Source: a virus
Strand: one strand, 5' to 3'
IMG/VR virus record: IMGVR_UViG_3300043811_000165
Coordinates: 1-59,868 of that record
Length of the DNA: 59,868 bases
Below the pieces are notes generated by a model, which did no database searches, was not told where the DNA came from, and saw only the letters and a program-made list of their open reading frames with translations. Both the position numbers and the translations under genes were made by a program. This document shows positions 8,918 through 59,033 of the stretch, piece after piece. Numbering within the stretch: position 1 is the first letter of the stretch; every line of letters starts with the position of its first letter.

Positions 8918-8983
8918 TGATTTGGCCTCATCGGGTTTGAGGCTTCGACCGGAGTTTTGATCGTTCGACCAGGAGGGGTTTTT

Positions 8984-9184
8984 GTGAAGCGCAAAACAAG
9001 ATTCAATATTATCCGAGCTTTGGAGTTTACGTGCGGCTGGATCGGAGGCCGTTACTTTCATGACGACTGGAGATTTATTCTAGTCCTGATTCCGTTCGCA
9101 ATAGTGTTTGCATATCTGCTCAGAGTCCCAGAACCACTCCTGGTCGAACGCTCCGAAACCGACGCGCAGACCGTTTCCGACTGA
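8984..9184 (+). CDS. Small membrane protein in a two-repeat cassette
   Basis: GTG at 8984 follows AGGAGGGG of the inner repeat end. The 66-aa protein has a TM segment (FILVLIPFAIVFAYLL) and ends PLLVERSETDAQTVSD within the reversed repeat, whose TGA is the stop. It is one of the clearest single-gene cassettes. Function unknown. Confidence 0.55.
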   Translation: MKRKTRFNIIRALEFTCGWIGGRYFHDDWRFILVLIPFAIVFAYLLRVPEPLLVERSETDAQTVSD

Positions 9185-30845: not shown

Positions 30846-30920
30846 CCGTTCCATGGTTTGGCCTCATCGGGCATGTGGCTTCGATGGCAAGCCGGATCGT
30901 TCGACCAGGAGGGGTTTTGG

Positions 30921-31631
30921 ATGGCTTTCGACTTGCAAGTTGTGGTGAACGGCGCGGTGGAAGCGGCGATGAAGGACGGCGGACCCGTTGAGAAGTTGGT
31001 TTCCGAACAGGTGAATAAGGCGATTGCGGAAGCGTTCATGTCGCAGTTCCGAACCTATTCCGATTTCGGAAAGGCGGTCCAGAAGGCAGTTGCCGACGCT
31101 CTCACCTTCGACCCGAATAAATTCGATATCCAGCGGTATCACCTTCTGATTCGGGATGTCGTCAAGAAGCGCGTTGAAGAAAAGATGACGCAGGAGTTCG
31201 CGGTAGAACTGGACAAGTTGCTCGCGGATCTTCATGAGCCCGTTCCCGCTGAACTGAAACTGTCGGAACTGGTCGCGGCGTTCATTGAGCATTTCGAAAA
31301 GGACAGTTACGCGCGCAAACAGGCCGACCGCGTTTCGGTGAAGGTGGGGACGACAGACTACGGATTCACGCACATCTACTTGTACCCAGACGGGAGCCAG
31401 AAGAAACCATACTCCTCTCACTACGACATGGGCCTCCACCTGGACAAAGAGGGCGTCGTCTACTCCGTGGTGATTAACGGCGAATCGATTGATAAGAAGT
31501 TCTTTCTCTCCAGAAAACGAGGCTTCGAGCGGCTGCTGGTCGGCCTCTACATGCAAAAAAGCAGGATCGTGCTGGATTCCTACGATAGTGCCTACAAGGA
31601 AGAGCCGGAGGATGAATGCAGTTGCGCATGA
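30921..31631 (+). CDS. Helical-rich hypothetical protein
   Basis: ATG at 30921 follows AGGAGGGG of a type I inner end. The 236-aa protein has a helical first half (GAVEAAMKDGGPVEKLVSEQ) and a beta-containing second half (SVKVGTTDYGFTHIYLYPDG), with a C-terminal DECSCA. Function unknown. Confidence 0.55.
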   Translation: MAFDLQVVVNGAVEAAMKDGGPVEKLVSEQVNKAIAEAFMSQFRTYSDFGKAVQKAVADALTFDPNKFDIQRYHLLIRDVVKKRVEEKMTQEFAVELDKLLADLHEPVPAELKLSELVAAFIEHFEKDSYARKQADRVSVKVGTTDYGFTHIYLYPDGSQKKPYSSHYDMGLHLDKEGVVYSVVINGESIDKKFFLSRKRGFERLLVGLYMQKSRIVLDSYDSAYKEEPEDECSCA

Positions 31632-33901: not shown

Positions 33902-33979
33902 GCAGATAACCCCTCTTGGTCGAACGCTCCAACCCACCCGCGCAGACCGATGCCCGATGAGGCCAAGATAAAAAACACA

Positions 33980-35077
33980 ATGCCGTTGGACCCACTCGCC
34001 CTATTGCACAAACAAGGAAAGGAACTGCTCAACGTCCTTTCCTCCGGCCGCGAATCCTCGGATCTTATCCCAGCGAAGGTCCTGGAGCAACACATCGCGA
34101 TTCTAGGAAAAACCGGCAGCGGTAAAAGTTACACGGCCAAAGGCATAGTCGAAACCCTCCTGGCGCAAAAACAGCGAGTGTGCGTAATCGATCCCACGGG
34201 CGTCTGGTGGGGACTTAGATCCGATTCAACCGGGAAGAAACTGGGATTTCCTATTATCGTGCTAGGAGGGGAGGGGGATCTGCTCCTGAACCCGGACCAC
34301 GGCGCCGCGATTGCGGAGATCATCGGAACCACCGACACATCCGCTATTCTCAACACCCGCACAATGACGATCAAACAGCGCACGGGCTTCTTTGCCGATT
34401 TCGCGGAAACGCTGCTGCGAAAGAACACCGGGCCTTTGACGCTGGTGATCGACGAAGCCCACCTGTTCATGCCGCAGACCCGGCCGGGAGACGTCGCCGG
34501 TACACGGATGCTCGACGCGGCGAACAACCTGGTCAGCCTCGGCCGCGGAATCGGGCTCCGGATCATCCTCATCTCCCAGCGGCCGGCGAAAGTGCACAAG
34601 GACAGTTTGACGCAGGCGGAAACACTGATCGTTATGCGCCTGATAGCCCCTCAGGATCGCAGAGCCGTCGAAGATTGGATCGGCGAGTGGGCGCAGCCCC
34701 ATGAGGGCCGGGAATTGCTGCGATCGCTCCAGTCGCTTCCTACGGGCGAAGGATGGCTTTGGGCTCCGGAGCTGGGAATTCTCGATTATGTCGAGTTCCC
34801 GCGCATCAAAACCTACGATTCGAGCCGGGCGCCCGATGGAACGAAGCGGTTGACGGAGCTGCCAGCGTTGCGGAATGCTGTGGACCGGCTGAATGTCCAG
34901 GTGATTGCGGAGCGGTTGAAAAACGTTCCCCCTCCTGGTCGGACGGACAAACGGAGGCGCAAAGACGAAGAGTTGAGGGAGGCCAATGAATCGGCCTCTT
35001 CGGGCTCTGATCCTTCGACCGATCTTCCTACCGTTCGACATGGGCAGGCTTCGGAAGGGCCGAAAAGTGGCTCCTAA
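33980..35077 (+). CDS. HerA/FtsK-type ATPase, candidate DNA-packaging or translocase
   Basis: The 365-aa product has Walker A GKTGSGKS (residues 43-50), Walker B LTLVIDEA (about 153-160) and a conserved IGLRIILISQRPAKVHKD sensor/arginine-finger region. Viral A32-like and HerA-like members pump DNA into capsids in tailless viruses. With no terminase in the window, this is the best packaging candidate. Its C-terminus runs through two adjoining repeats into the methyltransferase start region. Confidence 0.75.
   Translation: MPLDPLALLHKQGKELLNVLSSGRESSDLIPAKVLEQHIAILGKTGSGKSYTAKGIVETLLAQKQRVCVIDPTGVWWGLRSDSTGKKLGFPIIVLGGEGDLLLNPDHGAAIAEIIGTTDTSAILNTRTMTIKQRTGFFADFAETLLRKNTGPLTLVIDEAHLFMPQTRPGDVAGTRMLDAANNLVSLGRGIGLRIILISQRPAKVHKDSLTQAETLIVMRLIAPQDRRAVEDWIGEWAQPHEGRELLRSLQSLPTGEGWLWAPELGILDYVEFPRIKTYDSSRAPDGTKRLTELPALRNAVDRLNVQVIAERLKNVPPPGRTDKRRRKDEELREANESASSGSDPSTDLPTVRHGQASEGPKSGS
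34930..35047. repeat. Back-to-back type I copies (outer ends abutting)
   Basis: A reversed copy (34930-34985) is followed at once by a forward copy (34987-35047), so their outer ends meet. This is the opposite of the empty pairs, whose inner ends face each other. The forward copy has ACATGGG instead of the AGGAG, which creates the methyltransferase ATG. Confidence 0.65.
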
Positions 35078-36356
35078 AGCCTGGTACAACGAAATAGATC
35101 CGAAGAAAGCGGCATGGCTTCGAGAACTGATCAAGCGCGGACTGATCGCGCCAGGAGACGTGGATGAACGATCAATTGCCGATGTTCGGCCCGCCGACCT
35201 TGCCGGATACACCCAATGTCACTTCTTTACCGGAATCGGCATCTGGAGCTACGCGCTCCGTCTCGCCGGGTGGCCCGACGAAAGGGAAGTCTGGACGGGC
35301 TCCTGCCCCTGCCAGCCCTTCAGCGCGGCCGGCAAAGGTGAAGCGTTCGACGACGAAAGGCATCTTTGGCCAGAGTTCTTTCGACTCATCGAGGCACGAC
35401 GACCTGTCGTATGCTTTGGCGAACAGGTTGCGTCGATCGACGGACTCGCTTGGCTCGACCTTGTTCAATCTGACCTGGACCGTGCGGATTACACCTGCGG
35501 GGCGGTCGATCTGTGCGCTGCGGGCGTCGGAGCCCCTCACCGAAGGCAGCGTCTTTATTGGGTGGCCGACACCGCGATCGTCGGGAGGCGGTCCAGATTT
35601 CGCAATCGAGCAGCGGCAGGAGAGCGGGGGATTGAGTCTTCAAACGCCTGTGGCACTGTCGGGTTGGCCCACGAGTCGCGCGGAGGACGCGGAATCGTCG
35701 GGAATGAGGCACAGCCGGGGAGTGGCCGACACGTTGACGGCCGTGGCTGCGTTGACGGGATGGGGAACGCCGGCGGCGCGGGATTGGAAGTCGGGGGACG
35801 CAAGTCAGGAGACGCTGGACAAGAACGCGCGGCCGTTGACCGAACTGGCGAAGCTGGCAGGATGGCCAACCGCAACTGCGACGGACGGGCAGCGGGGCGG
35901 GGAGCAGACGGAGGAGATGAGCGGTTCGTCCCTGACACAGTGGGCGAAGAATGGCGGGATGGGGAACGCCGAAAGCATCGGACGGGGAAGGCGGGCGAGA
36001 TTGAGCGGATGGGTGACTCCGAAGAAAGCCGACGGGGAGCAGGGCAGCGAATCGATGATGCGGGGCAACCTGACGCTGTTGGGCGAGGCCCGGTTAACGG
36101 CTTTTGGCGAGACTCCGATTGGGTACTTACTCGGCCCCAACGGGTGGGAGATCGTCCCGGCTTGCGGCCAGTTGAGCCCGGCTCATTCCCGCTGGCTAAT
36201 GGGTCTTCCGAGCGCGTGGGACGATTGCGGGGTTACGGCGATGGCATCGTTGCGCAGTGCGCGCAAGCGTTCATCGAAGCATACCTGTCCCTCACCGCCA
36301 CAACGGACCATGCACCGGAGCCGGAATGTAGCCCACAAGGTACGACAACAGAATGA
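35040..36356 (+). CDS. DNA (cytosine-5) methyltransferase
   Basis: The 438-aa product has HFFTGIGIWS (motif I, about residues 61-70), GSCPCQPFSAAGKG with the PCQ catalytic Cys (90-95), VCFGEQVAS (motif VI-like) and HRRQRLYWVAD (motif VIII). After a Gly/Arg-rich linker it ends RVGRLRGYGDGIVAQ (motif X-like). It methylates cytosine in DNA, probably against host restriction. Most of its length overlaps a second gene in another frame. Confidence 0.85.
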   Translation: MGRLRKGRKVAPKAWYNEIDPKKAAWLRELIKRGLIAPGDVDERSIADVRPADLAGYTQCHFFTGIGIWSYALRLAGWPDEREVWTGSCPCQPFSAAGKGEAFDDERHLWPEFFRLIEARRPVVCFGEQVASIDGLAWLDLVQSDLDRADYTCGAVDLCAAGVGAPHRRQRLYWVADTAIVGRRSRFRNRAAAGERGIESSNACGTVGLAHESRGGRGIVGNEAQPGSGRHVDGRGCVDGMGNAGGAGLEVGGRKSGDAGQERAAVDRTGEAGRMANRNCDGRAAGRGADGGDERFVPDTVGEEWRDGERRKHRTGKAGEIERMGDSEESRRGAGQRIDDAGQPDAVGRGPVNGFWRDSDWVLTRPQRVGDRPGLRPVEPGSFPLANGSSERVGRLRGYGDGIVAQCAQAFIEAYLSLTATTDHAPEPECSPQGTTTE

Positions 36357-36519
36357 TCAGGAAAATCACGGCGACGATCACCCGAACGATCTGACCGATG
36401 GGAACGGGCATTGGGATCATGTCGATGATCCACCAGACCACTGTGAAAATCAGGCCGATGATCAGGAGCGTGACGAGCATTCCAATAAGACCTGTGAGCA
36501 TGGAAGCACCTTCAGGTAG
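35164..36519 (+). CDS. Methyltransferase-associated protein in an alternative overlapping frame
   Basis: ATG at 35164, six bases after GGAG, opens a 451-aa frame entirely different from the methyltransferase's. It shows a recognisable family pattern: NDQLPMFG near the start, TDSLGSTLFNLTWTVRITPA, repeated GWPTP-like units and LSPAHSRWLMGLPSAWDDCG near the end. I know this family from phage genomes next to dcm genes. The last part, after about 36290, is antisense to a membrane protein and less certain. Confidence 0.6.
   Translation: MNDQLPMFGPPTLPDTPNVTSLPESASGATRSVSPGGPTKGKSGRAPAPASPSARPAKVKRSTTKGIFGQSSFDSSRHDDLSYALANRLRRSTDSLGSTLFNLTWTVRITPAGRSICALRASEPLTEGSVFIGWPTPRSSGGGPDFAIEQRQESGGLSLQTPVALSGWPTSRAEDAESSGMRHSRGVADTLTAVAALTGWGTPAARDWKSGDASQETLDKNARPLTELAKLAGWPTATATDGQRGGEQTEEMSGSSLTQWAKNGGMGNAESIGRGRRARLSGWVTPKKADGEQGSESMMRGNLTLLGEARLTAFGETPIGYLLGPNGWEIVPACGQLSPAHSRWLMGLPSAWDDCGVTAMASLRSARKRSSKHTCPSPPQRTMHRSRNVAHKVRQQNDQENHGDDHPNDLTDGNGHWDHVDDPPDHCENQADDQERDEHSNKTCEHGSTFR
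36292..36501 (-). CDS. Small two-TM membrane protein
   Basis: The 69-aa product has two TM segments (GMLVTLLIIGLIFTVVWWII and IVRVIVAVIFLIILLSYLVG) joined by a PMPVPIGQ turn. This resembles a small bacterial and phage membrane family with IPM...Q-I turns. It lies antisense to the end of the previous frame, so one of the two is probably shorter than drawn. Confidence 0.55.
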   Translation of the reverse strand: MLTGLIGMLVTLLIIGLIFTVVWWIIDMIPMPVPIGQIVRVIVAVIFLIILLSYLVGYIPAPVHGPLWR

Positions 36520-36541: not shown

Positions 36542-36688
36542 TGTTTCGGCCTCCGTCGGCTTCCTGGCTTCGATCAGCAGACAGCGCCCGACCAGGAGAT
36601 GGTTTTTCTACCCGCGAAGATCAACACCTTTCTCCTGGTCGAACGGGTATAGCGGGCGCAGAAACACCAAAGCCCGATGAGGCTAAAG
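36542..36688. repeat. Empty type I pair
   Basis: Same architecture as at 30317, with ATCAGCAGACAGCGCCCGAC before AGGAGATGG and a reversed half with CTCCTGGTCGAACGGG. It sits at the 3' end of the leftward structural module. Confidence 0.8.
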
Positions 36689-37813
36689 GCAAGGATAAAG
36701 CTTCTTACCCACCATATACACTACAATCTGAACCGGAAGCAGAGCGGGATTTGTTACTTCCGAGTAGAAATCAATTTGCAGTTGCGAATCTTTCCGGTAG
36801 AACAGCGGCGGAACCACTGCCCCGTTTTCATAAGGCGAGCCCGGCCCTCCGTTGTAGAAAATATCCATGATCGGAATGTTGGAGAGGGTGACGAAGTTGT
36901 GATCGTAGACCGATAGCGCGCAGATCGGGGAAGTGATCACTTCGGCGCCGCCGCCAGTTAAAAACTGGGGAGTGAACGTCTGGAAAGCGCTGTTCACGGG
37001 CGCGGTAAAAAGCACAAGCGCGGCGACGGCCGGGATTGCGTTCAGAGCAACTACCAAGTCCCCGGTGAGCCCATCGGATAATCCGCCACTGTTCGTTTGT
37101 AACCCCACCGTGATCGCGTTTCCAACCACCGTAGCTGTGACGGGTTGACTTGGACCAAGCGTGACGAAGGCGACCGATATCAAATTGCCGGTAGGACCCG
37201 CAACTTTCGCAGTCACAACCACTGTGCCAGCTTCGGTCGCAAACGTCGTGCTGGCGGCCGACTGCTTCATGATGATCAACTGGTGCAGTTCAAAGTCGTA
37301 ATTGTTGATCGGCGTGTAGGTTGTGACTGGCGCGGAGGGAGCGGTCTGCGTCAGCGTTGCGGTCGTTTGGTAGGTGAAGGATCTGGGCTGATTCTTGTAA
37401 TTCGGGTTGTGAACATTGCCCGGCAGACGTCGGACACCCTGGAACGCGAGCTGCGCCGTCAGATTCTGGGAGGGAAGCGAAATCCCATACAGATCGAAAC
37501 CGATTTGCCCGGTCTCCGGATACCACTCCTCGGGTGCGATCGCCAGCTCGGGGCTGTTTGGTGCCTGGACCGGGTTTGAACTCTGGTAAACGCCCTGCGA
37601 GGCGCGCATGATCTGGAATTGGCCGGTTCCGTTCGTTGCGAGAAGGCGGTTCAATCCGACTACTCGCCGGACTGCGAAGTCTCCGTAGCCTCCCTGGATG
37701 TATACTTGCTGGTTTTGATAGTTGTTTCCATTGGTGAGAGAGGATGCGTTGAAGGCGTAGGTGTACGGAAGATCGTAGTAGCCTGGCGGGGGTGTGTAGG
37801 GCCGGGTTTTCAT
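36683..37813 (-). CDS. Structural scaffold protein with inserted beta domain (paralogue A)
   Basis: The 376-aa product starts MKTRPYTPPPGYYDLPYTYA and shares with the next large gene APEEWYPETGQIGFDLYG, PYENGAVVPPLFY and the end VGKKLYPC. A unique insert of about 100 residues (TGNLISVAFVTLGP, TGDLVVALNAIPAVAALVL) resembles a repeat domain of phage sheath or adhesin proteins. It could be a capsid, penton or spike protein. It is unclassified. Confidence 0.6.
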   Translation of the reverse strand: MKTRPYTPPPGYYDLPYTYAFNASSLTNGNNYQNQQVYIQGGYGDFAVRRVVGLNRLLATNGTGQFQIMRASQGVYQSSNPVQAPNSPELAIAPEEWYPETGQIGFDLYGISLPSQNLTAQLAFQGVRRLPGNVHNPNYKNQPRSFTYQTTATLTQTAPSAPVTTYTPINNYDFELHQLIIMKQSAASTTFATEAGTVVVTAKVAGPTGNLISVAFVTLGPSQPVTATVVGNAITVGLQTNSGGLSDGLTGDLVVALNAIPAVAALVLFTAPVNSAFQTFTPQFLTGGGAEVITSPICALSVYDHNFVTLSNIPIMDIFYNGGPGSPYENGAVVPPLFYRKDSQLQIDFYSEVTNPALLPVQIVVYMVGKKLYPCL

Positions 37814-37950
37814 GGTTTGGCCTCGCCCCACTTCCCGGCTCGCTCAATTCGATACTTCTCGACAGCGACCGCTTTTCCGCGCACGCCATCTCTTCCACGC
37901 CAGCAGAGAGCCAGTAGCAGGCACCCAAATAACGGGCGGTTTGTGCTCAC
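37810..37950 (-). CDS. Small cassette peptide between the two scaffold paralogues
   Basis: GTG at 37950 follows AGGAG of a type I copy. The 46-aa product (MSTNRPLFGCLLLALCWRG...) has a short hydrophobic stretch and ends AVAVEKYRIERAGKWGEAKP in a type II repeat. The stop overlaps the next ATG. It is a clear type I/type II cassette. Confidence 0.5.
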   Translation of the reverse strand: MSTNRPLFGCLLLALCWRGRDGVRGKAVAVEKYRIERAGKWGEAKP

Positions 37951-38014: not shown

Positions 38015-39973
38015 TTATTCGCACGGATACAACTTCCTGCCTACCAGATACGCAACCACCTGAGCCGGTCCTGCTTCGAACACGTAAACCGGATTCAACC
38101 CGCTTCCATGAATCGGTTCATTGCCGACAAACACCCAACCTCCCGTTGGCGATCCAGACACCGCAATTCCCATCGCCTGTGTTGGGAACGCCGGATCGGG
38201 TATCAGCGTCTGAGACAAAGCCCACGTGTTGCCGGTGAGCGTGTAAACGTAAACCTGGCCGTTGCCTGCGGTCGATCCTGAAAACGGTGCCTGGTAGGCC
38301 CCGATGATCAACGTCGAATCATCGCCCGCGATCGAATTCGGAGCCGCGAAAAACTCAGCTCCCAGTCCGGCGAACGGATGAAGCAGCGTTTGCTGCAACG
38401 TCCAGACCCCGCCCGCGAGTTTATAAACGAGAGCCTCTTCCGGTCCAAACCCGCCCGTTGCGATCGCGCCAATCACGGCCGTCAAGCCGGTCGATGTCAT
38501 GTATCCACCGTAGCCTGAGAAGGTGAATCCGGCCGGTGGTGAAATTTCCTGCTCTTGAACCCACGCGCCAGCGACCAATTGGAAGAAATACGCGCGAGTT
38601 CCGCCCGCGGCGTTGCCAGTAACGATCATCCAGTTCCCGCCCGAATAAATGTTCAGTCCAAATCCGGCGGTCGTGTCCGCAGCGTTGAATTTCTGTTGCA
38701 GCGTCCAGGTACCTGCGACCAGCGTATAGTAGTACACGTTTCCGGGTTGCCCGACGGCTCCACTCGTGGAACGGGTCGCACCGATCAGCAGATTGCCGCT
38801 TGGCGAGATAGCGATAAACGCGCCGAAGAAATCCGTAACCGCGCCATCGGTTCCCTGTATCGTTTGGGCAAGTGAGAAACTTCCAGCCGCGAGATTGTAG
38901 ACGTAAACTGAGCCGCGGGTTGCGGCCGTCGACGGTTCGCCAACGAACAGTTTCGTGCCATCCGGAGAAAATGCAATCGCCGTGCCGTAGGAATCGACTC
39001 CGGACGCGGCAGGCTTGTTCAGGGCCTGTAGGAACGTCCAGACGCCGTTGATGTTCTGGTAAATGTCCACCTGCCCGATTTCTGAGCCCGTATTCGTGCG
39101 ATCATAGGCGGCGGCGTAATTACCCGCAGCGGCGACCGCGACGAACTGGCCGTAATCCGTGCTGGCCGGGCCGGTCGACAGCAGCTCCTGCGTCTGAGTC
39201 AACGCGCCGGTGCCGAAGCCATGGTAGTCGATCTGGATCTGGCTGTCCTTCTTGTAAAACAGCGGTGGAACGATCGCGCCATTCTCGTAAGGTGTTCCCG
39301 GCGCGCCGTTCAGATAAATATCGACGACCGGGATGTTGGAAATTCCCACCGTGAATTGGTCATAAATTGTGATTGCGCAGACGGGCGACTTGATCACGAC
39401 GAACAGACCGGAGGAGTTTTTGGAGAACAGCAGGACCTGGTACAGTTCGAAATCGTAATTGTCGACCTTCGTGTAGCTCGAAACGAAGCCGATGCTTTGG
39501 CTGGGGAGCGTCACGTCCGCGACGTACGTATAGGATTTCGGCTGAAATTTGTATGAGGGCCGGTGGGATGCTCCCGCGCCTTTGAGCCGACGGACCCCTT
39601 GAAACGCAATTTGCGCCGCGATCGGATTCGACGGGAGCAGGACGCCGTACAGATCGAAACCGATTTGCCCGGTCTCCGGATACCACTCCTCGGGTGCGAT
39701 CGCCAGCTCGGGGCTGTTTGCCGATTGCACCGGGTTCGAGGATTGGTAGACGCCTTGCGAGGCGCGCATGACTTGGAATTGGCCGGTGGGATTGGGGTTC
39801 AGGATGCGGTTCAGTCCGACGATGCGGCGCGCGGCGAAGTCTCCGTAACCACCTTGAATGTAGATCTGCTGATTCTGATAATTGTTCCCGTTTGTCAGGT
39901 TTCCTGCGTTGAAGGCGTAGGTGTAGGGTAAGTCGTAGTAGCCTGGCGGGGGTGTGTAGGGCCGGGTTTTCAT
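38015..39973 (-). CDS. Structural scaffold protein with inserted beta-propeller (paralogue B)
   Basis: The 652-aa product shares the scaffold (MKTRPYTPPPGYYDLPYTYA start, VGRKLYPCE end) with its neighbour. At a different site, just before the last 20 residues, it carries about 370 residues of FG-GAP-like repeats (DSYGTAIAFSPDGTKLFVGE, VTDFFGAFIAISPSGNLLIG, QVYVYTLTG). This is a likely seven-bladed propeller that could bind receptors or glycans. A surface location is inferred. Confidence 0.65.
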   Translation of the reverse strand: MKTRPYTPPPGYYDLPYTYAFNAGNLTNGNNYQNQQIYIQGGYGDFAARRIVGLNRILNPNPTGQFQVMRASQGVYQSSNPVQSANSPELAIAPEEWYPETGQIGFDLYGVLLPSNPIAAQIAFQGVRRLKGAGASHRPSYKFQPKSYTYVADVTLPSQSIGFVSSYTKVDNYDFELYQVLLFSKNSSGLFVVIKSPVCAITIYDQFTVGISNIPVVDIYLNGAPGTPYENGAIVPPLFYKKDSQIQIDYHGFGTGALTQTQELLSTGPASTDYGQFVAVAAAGNYAAAYDRTNTGSEIGQVDIYQNINGVWTFLQALNKPAASGVDSYGTAIAFSPDGTKLFVGEPSTAATRGSVYVYNLAAGSFSLAQTIQGTDGAVTDFFGAFIAISPSGNLLIGATRSTSGAVGQPGNVYYYTLVAGTWTLQQKFNAADTTAGFGLNIYSGGNWMIVTGNAAGGTRAYFFQLVAGAWVQEQEISPPAGFTFSGYGGYMTSTGLTAVIGAIATGGFGPEEALVYKLAGGVWTLQQTLLHPFAGLGAEFFAAPNSIAGDDSTLIIGAYQAPFSGSTAGNGQVYVYTLTGNTWALSQTLIPDPAFPTQAMGIAVSGSPTGGWVFVGNEPIHGSGLNPVYVFEAGPAQVVAYLVGRKLYPCE

Positions 39974-58810: not shown

Positions 58811-58874
58811 TTTTGGCCTCATCGCAGTTGAGTCTTCGACCGAAGTTTTGAGCGTTCGACCAGGAGGGGGTTTT

Positions 58875-59033
58875 GTGGAACACGGCGAATATCCGATTTT
58901 GAAAGAGTACTGTGATCGATGGGAGGTTGAAGTGCTAGACCAGACCGTCCGCCCCTGGTTGGTACGTGTGACGACGTTCACCGGGCCGGGTGCGGAGCAG
59001 ATGGCGCGGTCGATGTACGATTCGATTCGGTAG
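58875..59033 (+). CDS. Small hypothetical protein after a repeat inner end
   Basis: GTG at 58875 follows AGGAGGGGG of a type I copy. The 52-aa product (MEHGEYPILKEYCDRWEVEV...) ends FTGPGAEQMARSMYDSIR. No reversed copy follows it, so this is a single-ended case. Confidence 0.45.
   Translation: MEHGEYPILKEYCDRWEVEVLDQTVRPWLVRVTTFTGPGAEQMARSMYDSIR

Follow-up and report, generated by a model that had tools for sequence, protein, structure and literature searches.

M.EcoHK31I and M.EaeI are naturally split C5-cytosine methyltransferases (C5-MTases). M.EcoHK31I has YGGCCR specificity and needs both polypeptides for activity, and its beta polypeptide (about 176 aa) is coded within alpha in another reading frame. 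The C5-MTases of Bacillus phages (SPbeta/phi3T type) are multispecific single chains, in which short specificity modules stand in tandem with one catalytic core. The large subunit of M.EcoHK31I contains motifs I–VIII and X and was also assigned the predicted TRD, with motif IX on the smaller second polypeptide (PMC3404938). In M.AquI, motifs I–VIII are on one chain and the distal variable region and motif IX on the other, and activity is seen for split C5-MTases and for those that complement as fragments (PMC3404938).

The window analysed here is a virus record of 59,868 bases. One stretch of this phage DNA is, with high probability, read in two frames to give both halves of a cytosine-methylating enzyme. 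By description, the large subunit (alpha) resembles that of M.EcoHK31I in having motifs I–VIII and X. The small subunit of M.AquI has motif X as well as motif IX, whereas motif X of the window is on alpha. In M.EcoHK31I the large subunit is the one with the predicted TRD; in contrast, the VIII–X segment of the window's alpha is predicted to be disordered and is not under selection over the modules, where the second polypeptide (beta) is selected. Beta is 375–451 aa long and has five modules, compared with about 176 aa in M.EcoHK31I. The SPbeta/phi3T-type enzymes share the tandem short, specificity-like modules with one catalytic core, but they are single chains, whereas the window codes its modules in the +1 frame, on the other polypeptide.

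Two overlapping reading frames

Alpha, assigned as a C5-MTase large-domain subunit from PF00145, phrog_363 and M.HhaI, extends over 35067–36356 (+). Its start is uncertain, and the candidates are GTG 35067 (GGAAGGG upstream), ATG 35040 and ATG 34986. Beta is in the +1 frame at 35164–36519 (+), with a conserved part at 35164–36288 defined in an alignment of 70 sequences. Because alpha ends at 36356 and all three candidate starts lie upstream of beta, the dual-coded stretch is 35164–36356. The initial annotation had taken both frames over this stretch as genuine, with methyltransferase motifs at both ends of the first frame and a good GGAG start site for the second. Both ORFs and all of the quoted peptides are present, PCQPFS and the other motif peptides being in alpha, and stop avoidance and conservation bear out the two frames. 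The start site also holds: a Shine-Dalgarno-like AGGAG, recognised from the sequence and from start contexts across families, is located at 35153–35157 (+), and the beta ATG follows 6 nt after it. Shine-Dalgarno cores were found at 21/87 and 24/32 beta starts versus 57/803 controls. A HerA/FtsK-like ATPase gene (DUF87, 33950–35077) overlaps the alpha start, which suggests translational coupling.

Alpha has the motifs of a catalytic large domain

Alpha matched PF00145 (E=1.3e-13) and phrog_363 (E=8.9e-77), and resembles M.HhaI both in sequence and in predicted fold. Motif I (HFFTGIG, 35220–35240), motif IV with the catalytic Cys (PCQPFS, 35307–35324) and motif VIII (APHRRQRLYWVAD, 35532–35573) are conserved in a 70-sequence alpha alignment, and G, E and Q of the motif VI equivalent (GEQV, 35418–35429) are invariant in it. 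The Gly/Arg-rich middle segment (35574–36218) is followed by motif X (GRLRGYGDGIVAQ, 36219–36257), also conserved, which contains GYGDGIVAQ near the C-terminus of the window's alpha; all these features are on the plus strand. In the AF2 model, residues 13–190 are mostly well modelled and match M.HhaI, residues 195–398 mostly have pLDDT <50, and motif X is a confident helix (405–423). Motifs I, IV, VI and VIII thus stand in a Rossmann-type large domain, as expected of PF00145-type enzymes, whereas a motif survey did not place motif IX and the specificity region on the same chain (1/257 alphas with an IX-like pattern). The comparisons confirm alpha as the predicted large domain of a C5-MTase, in which motifs I, IV, VI, VIII and X are present and IX is missing.

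Beta is a modular protein with a motif IX-like end

In the PHROG search beta matched phrog_1008 (E=1.9e-24) and phrog_31772, and tblastn matched 168 phage records, so the second frame encodes a real conserved protein, as had been proposed. Beta consists of an N-terminal helix-hairpin and tandem modules, and ends with 'LSPAHSRWLMGLPSAW', a C-terminal segment similar to motif IX. The helix and hairpin (residues 78–125, 35395–35538, +) lie opposite alpha motifs VI–VIII and are the sole well-modelled part of a poor AF2 model (mean pLDDT 55). The array of five 'GW.T' modules (residues about 133, 167, 200, 233 and 282) is located at 35560–36093 (+). Modules are about 34 aa long, open with 'GWPTPxAxD', have a median spacing of 34 aa and mostly number 1–5 per protein. 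The motif IX-like segment (QLSPAHSRWLMGLPSAW, 36169–36219, +) is the best profile match to canonical enzymes at motif IX. No match was found for beta in Pfam and NCBIfam, its profile gave no match above chance among PDB sequences, and Foldseek found no fold with a model of this poor quality.

The C-terminal tail (36289–36519, +) is not conserved and is missing from relatives in the beta alignments; beyond 36288, the ~76 terminal residues probably represent a local read-through extension. This H/D/N/Q-rich tail is antisense to a hydrophobic 69-aa ORF (36292–36501, −), and the short stretch could be readable three ways.

Apparent division of motifs between the chains

A regex for a motif IX-like pattern after motif VIII matched 1/257 alphas and 216/257 betas, and the motif X pattern was found in 238/257 alphas. 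Shuffled betas matched the IX-like regex in 5/257 cases. As the regex was written post hoc and recovers just 18/28 canonical enzymes, it serves as a description and not as an independent test. With every profile tried, the best local match of beta to canonical enzymes fell exactly at motif IX, the motif that M.EcoHK31I has on its second polypeptide; the hhalign E-values of this match (0.06–0.5) are not significant, and 3/200 column-shuffled profiles scored as high. The presence of the two elements is complementary: beta accompanies alphas without IX, and no beta is found in 8/8 single-chain enzymes with their own IX.

Some relatives of the window family have an M.AquI-like layout. In L215, L217 and the actinophage loci L352, L353 and L355, alpha terminates behind motif VIII, and a single frame holds the modules together with IX and X. 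Motif X of L215 is also in the beta frame; in L217 the frame with the modules is additionally interrupted upstream. Among actinophages, Vash, Lemur and Andrew have this layout.

The arrangement recurs across phages

All 95 loci from beta-based searches have beta at +1 of alpha and overlapping it, 85 of them fully nested, a nesting of the type known from M.EcoHK31I. When the search started from a distant member, 67 of 68 viral loci showed the same +1 offset. The alpha-only search found beta at +1 in 80/80 viral and 22/22 related genome loci (102/102), and the remaining 8/8 loci encode normal single-chain enzymes that contain motif IX themselves, all 8 without a long beta-like +1 ORF. These counts agree with the earlier suggestion of a recurrent arrangement beside phage dcm-type genes. 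When 399 genomes from a single bacterial phylum were searched in six frames with the profile, 20 proved to contain beta, and 30/30 loci examined further have alpha in the overlapping frame, very distant members included; one of these members was the starting point for the 68 viral loci. The nested form exists in phages of Pseudomonadota, Paenibacillus, Microcystis, Vibrio and Bacteroides, while alpha and beta of actinophages only partly overlap. In the second, distant family formed by these 68 loci, beta begins at about alpha codon 1 and almost the entire gene is dual-coded.

The arrangement is present in hundreds of phages and is usually half annotated. Both overlapping ORFs are annotated in the K1ind3 and fKuEco01 records, and the Kagunavirus 'Mte8-like protein' and 'C-specific methylase' (PHROG 1008 and PHROG 363) belong to the families matched by beta and alpha, respectively; for these PHROG and Kagunavirus entries we found annotations only and no mechanism. 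In L101, L102, L104 and L361 both ORFs are intact, but automated annotation lists alpha only in the E. coli prophages and neither gene in the Pseudochrobactrum plasmid. Two loci considered as fused or re-framed variants (L005 and L238) are better explained by single indels. In Microcystis phage Mel-JY01 (L358), an S-adenosylmethionine synthase gene is located two genes upstream of alpha/beta and possibly supplies the cofactor.

Both frames are under selection

Synonymous shuffles of the window's alpha leave on average 3.2 stops in the +1 frame, which is open in 0.5% of them. Among 87 homologous loci, the +1 frame has 0 stops versus 312 expected under synonymous shuffling. Many of the loci analysed are metagenomic, so that indels are possible. 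In 74 distinct loci, beta has 0 stops versus 109 expected given alpha over the N-terminal half with the catalytic motifs, and alpha has 0 stops versus 301 expected given beta over the modules and C-terminus. These two comparisons indicate that both frames are kept open.

Substitution rates were obtained from 30 pairs, independent by locus and not by deep ancestry, in which alpha positions 1, 2 and 3 correspond to beta positions 3, 1 and 2. The rates at alpha positions 1/2/3 were.067/.073/.300 in the alpha-only stretch,.093/.060/.184 over motifs IV–VIII,.205/.091/.047 over the modules and.105/.056/.110 at the C-terminus. Over the modules, alpha position 1 (beta position 3) was the fastest site in 28/28 scorable pairs (sign test), and no such beta-type flip was observed in the alpha-only stretches of the same pairs. 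Nearing motif VIII, opposite most of the beta helix-hairpin, the alpha third-position rate drops from.28 to.11–.16. The second, distant family shows the same flip over the modules (.41/.12/.09). The only close relative of the window (L003) was scorable for the motifs and the C-terminus, with too few shared module sites. The selected frame is that of alpha in the region of the catalytic motifs and that of beta in the module region, and at the C-terminus both are selected. Purifying selection in the second frame, the check proposed in the initial annotation, is therefore present and the refuting outcome was not seen, and the 28/28 pairs support its idea that the Gly/Arg-rich middle of the methyltransferase is shaped by the second frame.

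Modules are shared between distant loci

Module classes were clustered on trimmed cores, as untrimmed single linkage chained nearly all modules via shared borders. With the shared borders trimmed, 63 module classes are present in at least 2 loci, a few of which are N-terminal false starts and no true modules. Several classes (e.g. 2 and 22) span loci whose alphas are only 26–39% identical, and classes common to distant loci sit at varying array positions. Module identity reached 58% in cross-family examples, and shuffled controls never exceeded 50%. Three Kagunavirus genes are 95–97% identical over the first 480 nt, and their module content differs by multiples of 3 bases.

Tandem modules are present in the beta frame, and reading of the DNA sequence is the role proposed for them; the beta modules probably choose the DNA sequence. 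The evidence puts the candidate specificity region in beta, as a module array exchanged among distantly related phages. Beta may further be an array of cassettes, each a DNA-reading module of its own, through which a single catalytic subunit could methylate more than one target sequence. Phages would gain, lose and swap these cassettes by recombining at the 'GWPTP' borders, which are conserved; we hold this possibility evenly balanced between true and false. If so, each cassette exchange must keep two frames open, and the dual-coded gene would evolve by modular shuffling.

A probable split enzyme and its alternatives

The reading that we favour with considerable confidence is a heterodimeric C5-MTase split at the domain boundary by reading frame, with alpha as the large domain and beta as the small domain (specificity region plus motif IX). 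The assignment of the predicted TRD of M.EcoHK31I to its large subunit (PMC3404938) counts against a specificity region in beta. Alpha would be the catalytic domain, with AdoMet binding, the catalytic Cys and, behind a long disordered linker, motif X. Beta starts inside alpha at +1 and would provide the helix-hairpin, the specificity modules and motif IX. The two subunits may bind each other and assemble into an active enzyme, which would methylate cytosines of the phage genome and thereby protect it from host restriction. The two frames would divide the enzyme exactly at the boundary of the large and small domains. Reading alpha through the module DNA would keep motif X on the large subunit at the cost of a meaningless linker; L215 and the actinophages show the simpler alternative, with motif X on beta. 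A plausible evolutionary path would lead from a single chain through a frameshift after motif VIII (AquI-like) to a second shift after IX, which would bring motif X back into the alpha frame.

Dual-coded genes often encode unrelated accessory proteins, and beta, which has no above-chance match in Pfam or PDB and no detectable fold, might be a separate protein of this sort (e.g. a regulator or an anti-restriction factor), overprinted on the methyltransferase gene but no part of the enzyme. However, alpha has neither motif IX nor a selected specificity region while beta supplies an IX-like end, beta and the motif IX of single-chain enzymes occur in strict complementarity, and motif X in the beta frame of L215 and the actinophages is sensible only for a split enzyme. 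A separate protein is accordingly improbable, and the evidence points to the second protein, to which the initial annotation gave no identity, as the small domain of the methyltransferase itself.

Programmed frameshifting after motif VIII, which would join the frames into one chain of canonical order (I–VIII, modules, IX), is very unlikely. Such a product would be without motif X, beta is stop-free well upstream of motif VIII (the 0 versus 109 comparison), alpha third positions are suppressed upstream of this motif, and the Shine-Dalgarno cores are enriched at beta starts over controls, although frameshifting is common in phages and the domain order across the +1 shift would fit a single-chain enzyme. 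The idea that the second frame is open through composition or codon bias and makes no protein has a negligible probability and is already refuted: GC-rich codon usage lengthens chance ORFs and other stretches of the window have spurious ORFs, but the stop avoidance in 87 loci, the beta-frame substitution pattern over the modules in all scorable pairs, the PHROG families of its own and the conservation across phages of several host phyla all stand against it.

Relation to described systems

The split enzyme proposed here is of a kind already known, since M.EcoHK31I has the motif division that is proposed for it (PMC3404938). What appears new relative to M.EcoHK31I is the putative specificity region in beta and not in alpha. 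Further additions are the multi-module beta, the modules common to deep lineages, and the family-wide, mostly unannotated dual coding. No account of these additions was found in full-text literature that covers only a minority of subscription journals. Three possible parallels were rejected. A Citrobacter plasmid copy (L360), considered as an EcoHK31I-like R-M system, is degenerate. The relaxed specificity of m5C enzymes from Paracoccus prophages (PMC3925955, PMC6536676) seemed to offer experimental support and was set aside because the length given for their homologues is about 700 aa (PMC5537653). The 'overlapping ORFs' of an Edwardsiella phage (PMC3025963) are tail genes.

Long same-strand dual coding is hard to prove in bacterial systems, and here hundreds of diverged copies show that both frames are selected and which frame rules where. 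The finding suggests where specificity is located in this class of split methyltransferases, allows many unannotated phage proteins to be interpreted, and can serve as a test case of module exchange within a two-frame gene. Predictions of the restriction systems that a given phage evades would benefit as well.

Other features of the window

The genes at 36683–37831 and 38015–39973 (−) encode two paralogues that are almost identical at the N-terminus and differ in the C-terminal half; one of them has FG-GAP repeats, and they are perhaps virion proteins. An element of about 55–66 nt occurs in dozens of copies throughout the window; the copies have either orientation and lie mostly at gene borders (e.g. 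8921–8986, 30857–30922, 34927–35046, 36545–36656 and 58812–58877). Its sequence is TTTGGCCTCATCGGG...GCTTCG...CGTTCGACCAGGAGGGG, and the reverse complement ends with GAGGCCAAA-ATG. The element often enters the 3' ends of ORFs, where it is read as '...LLVERS...EAK'.
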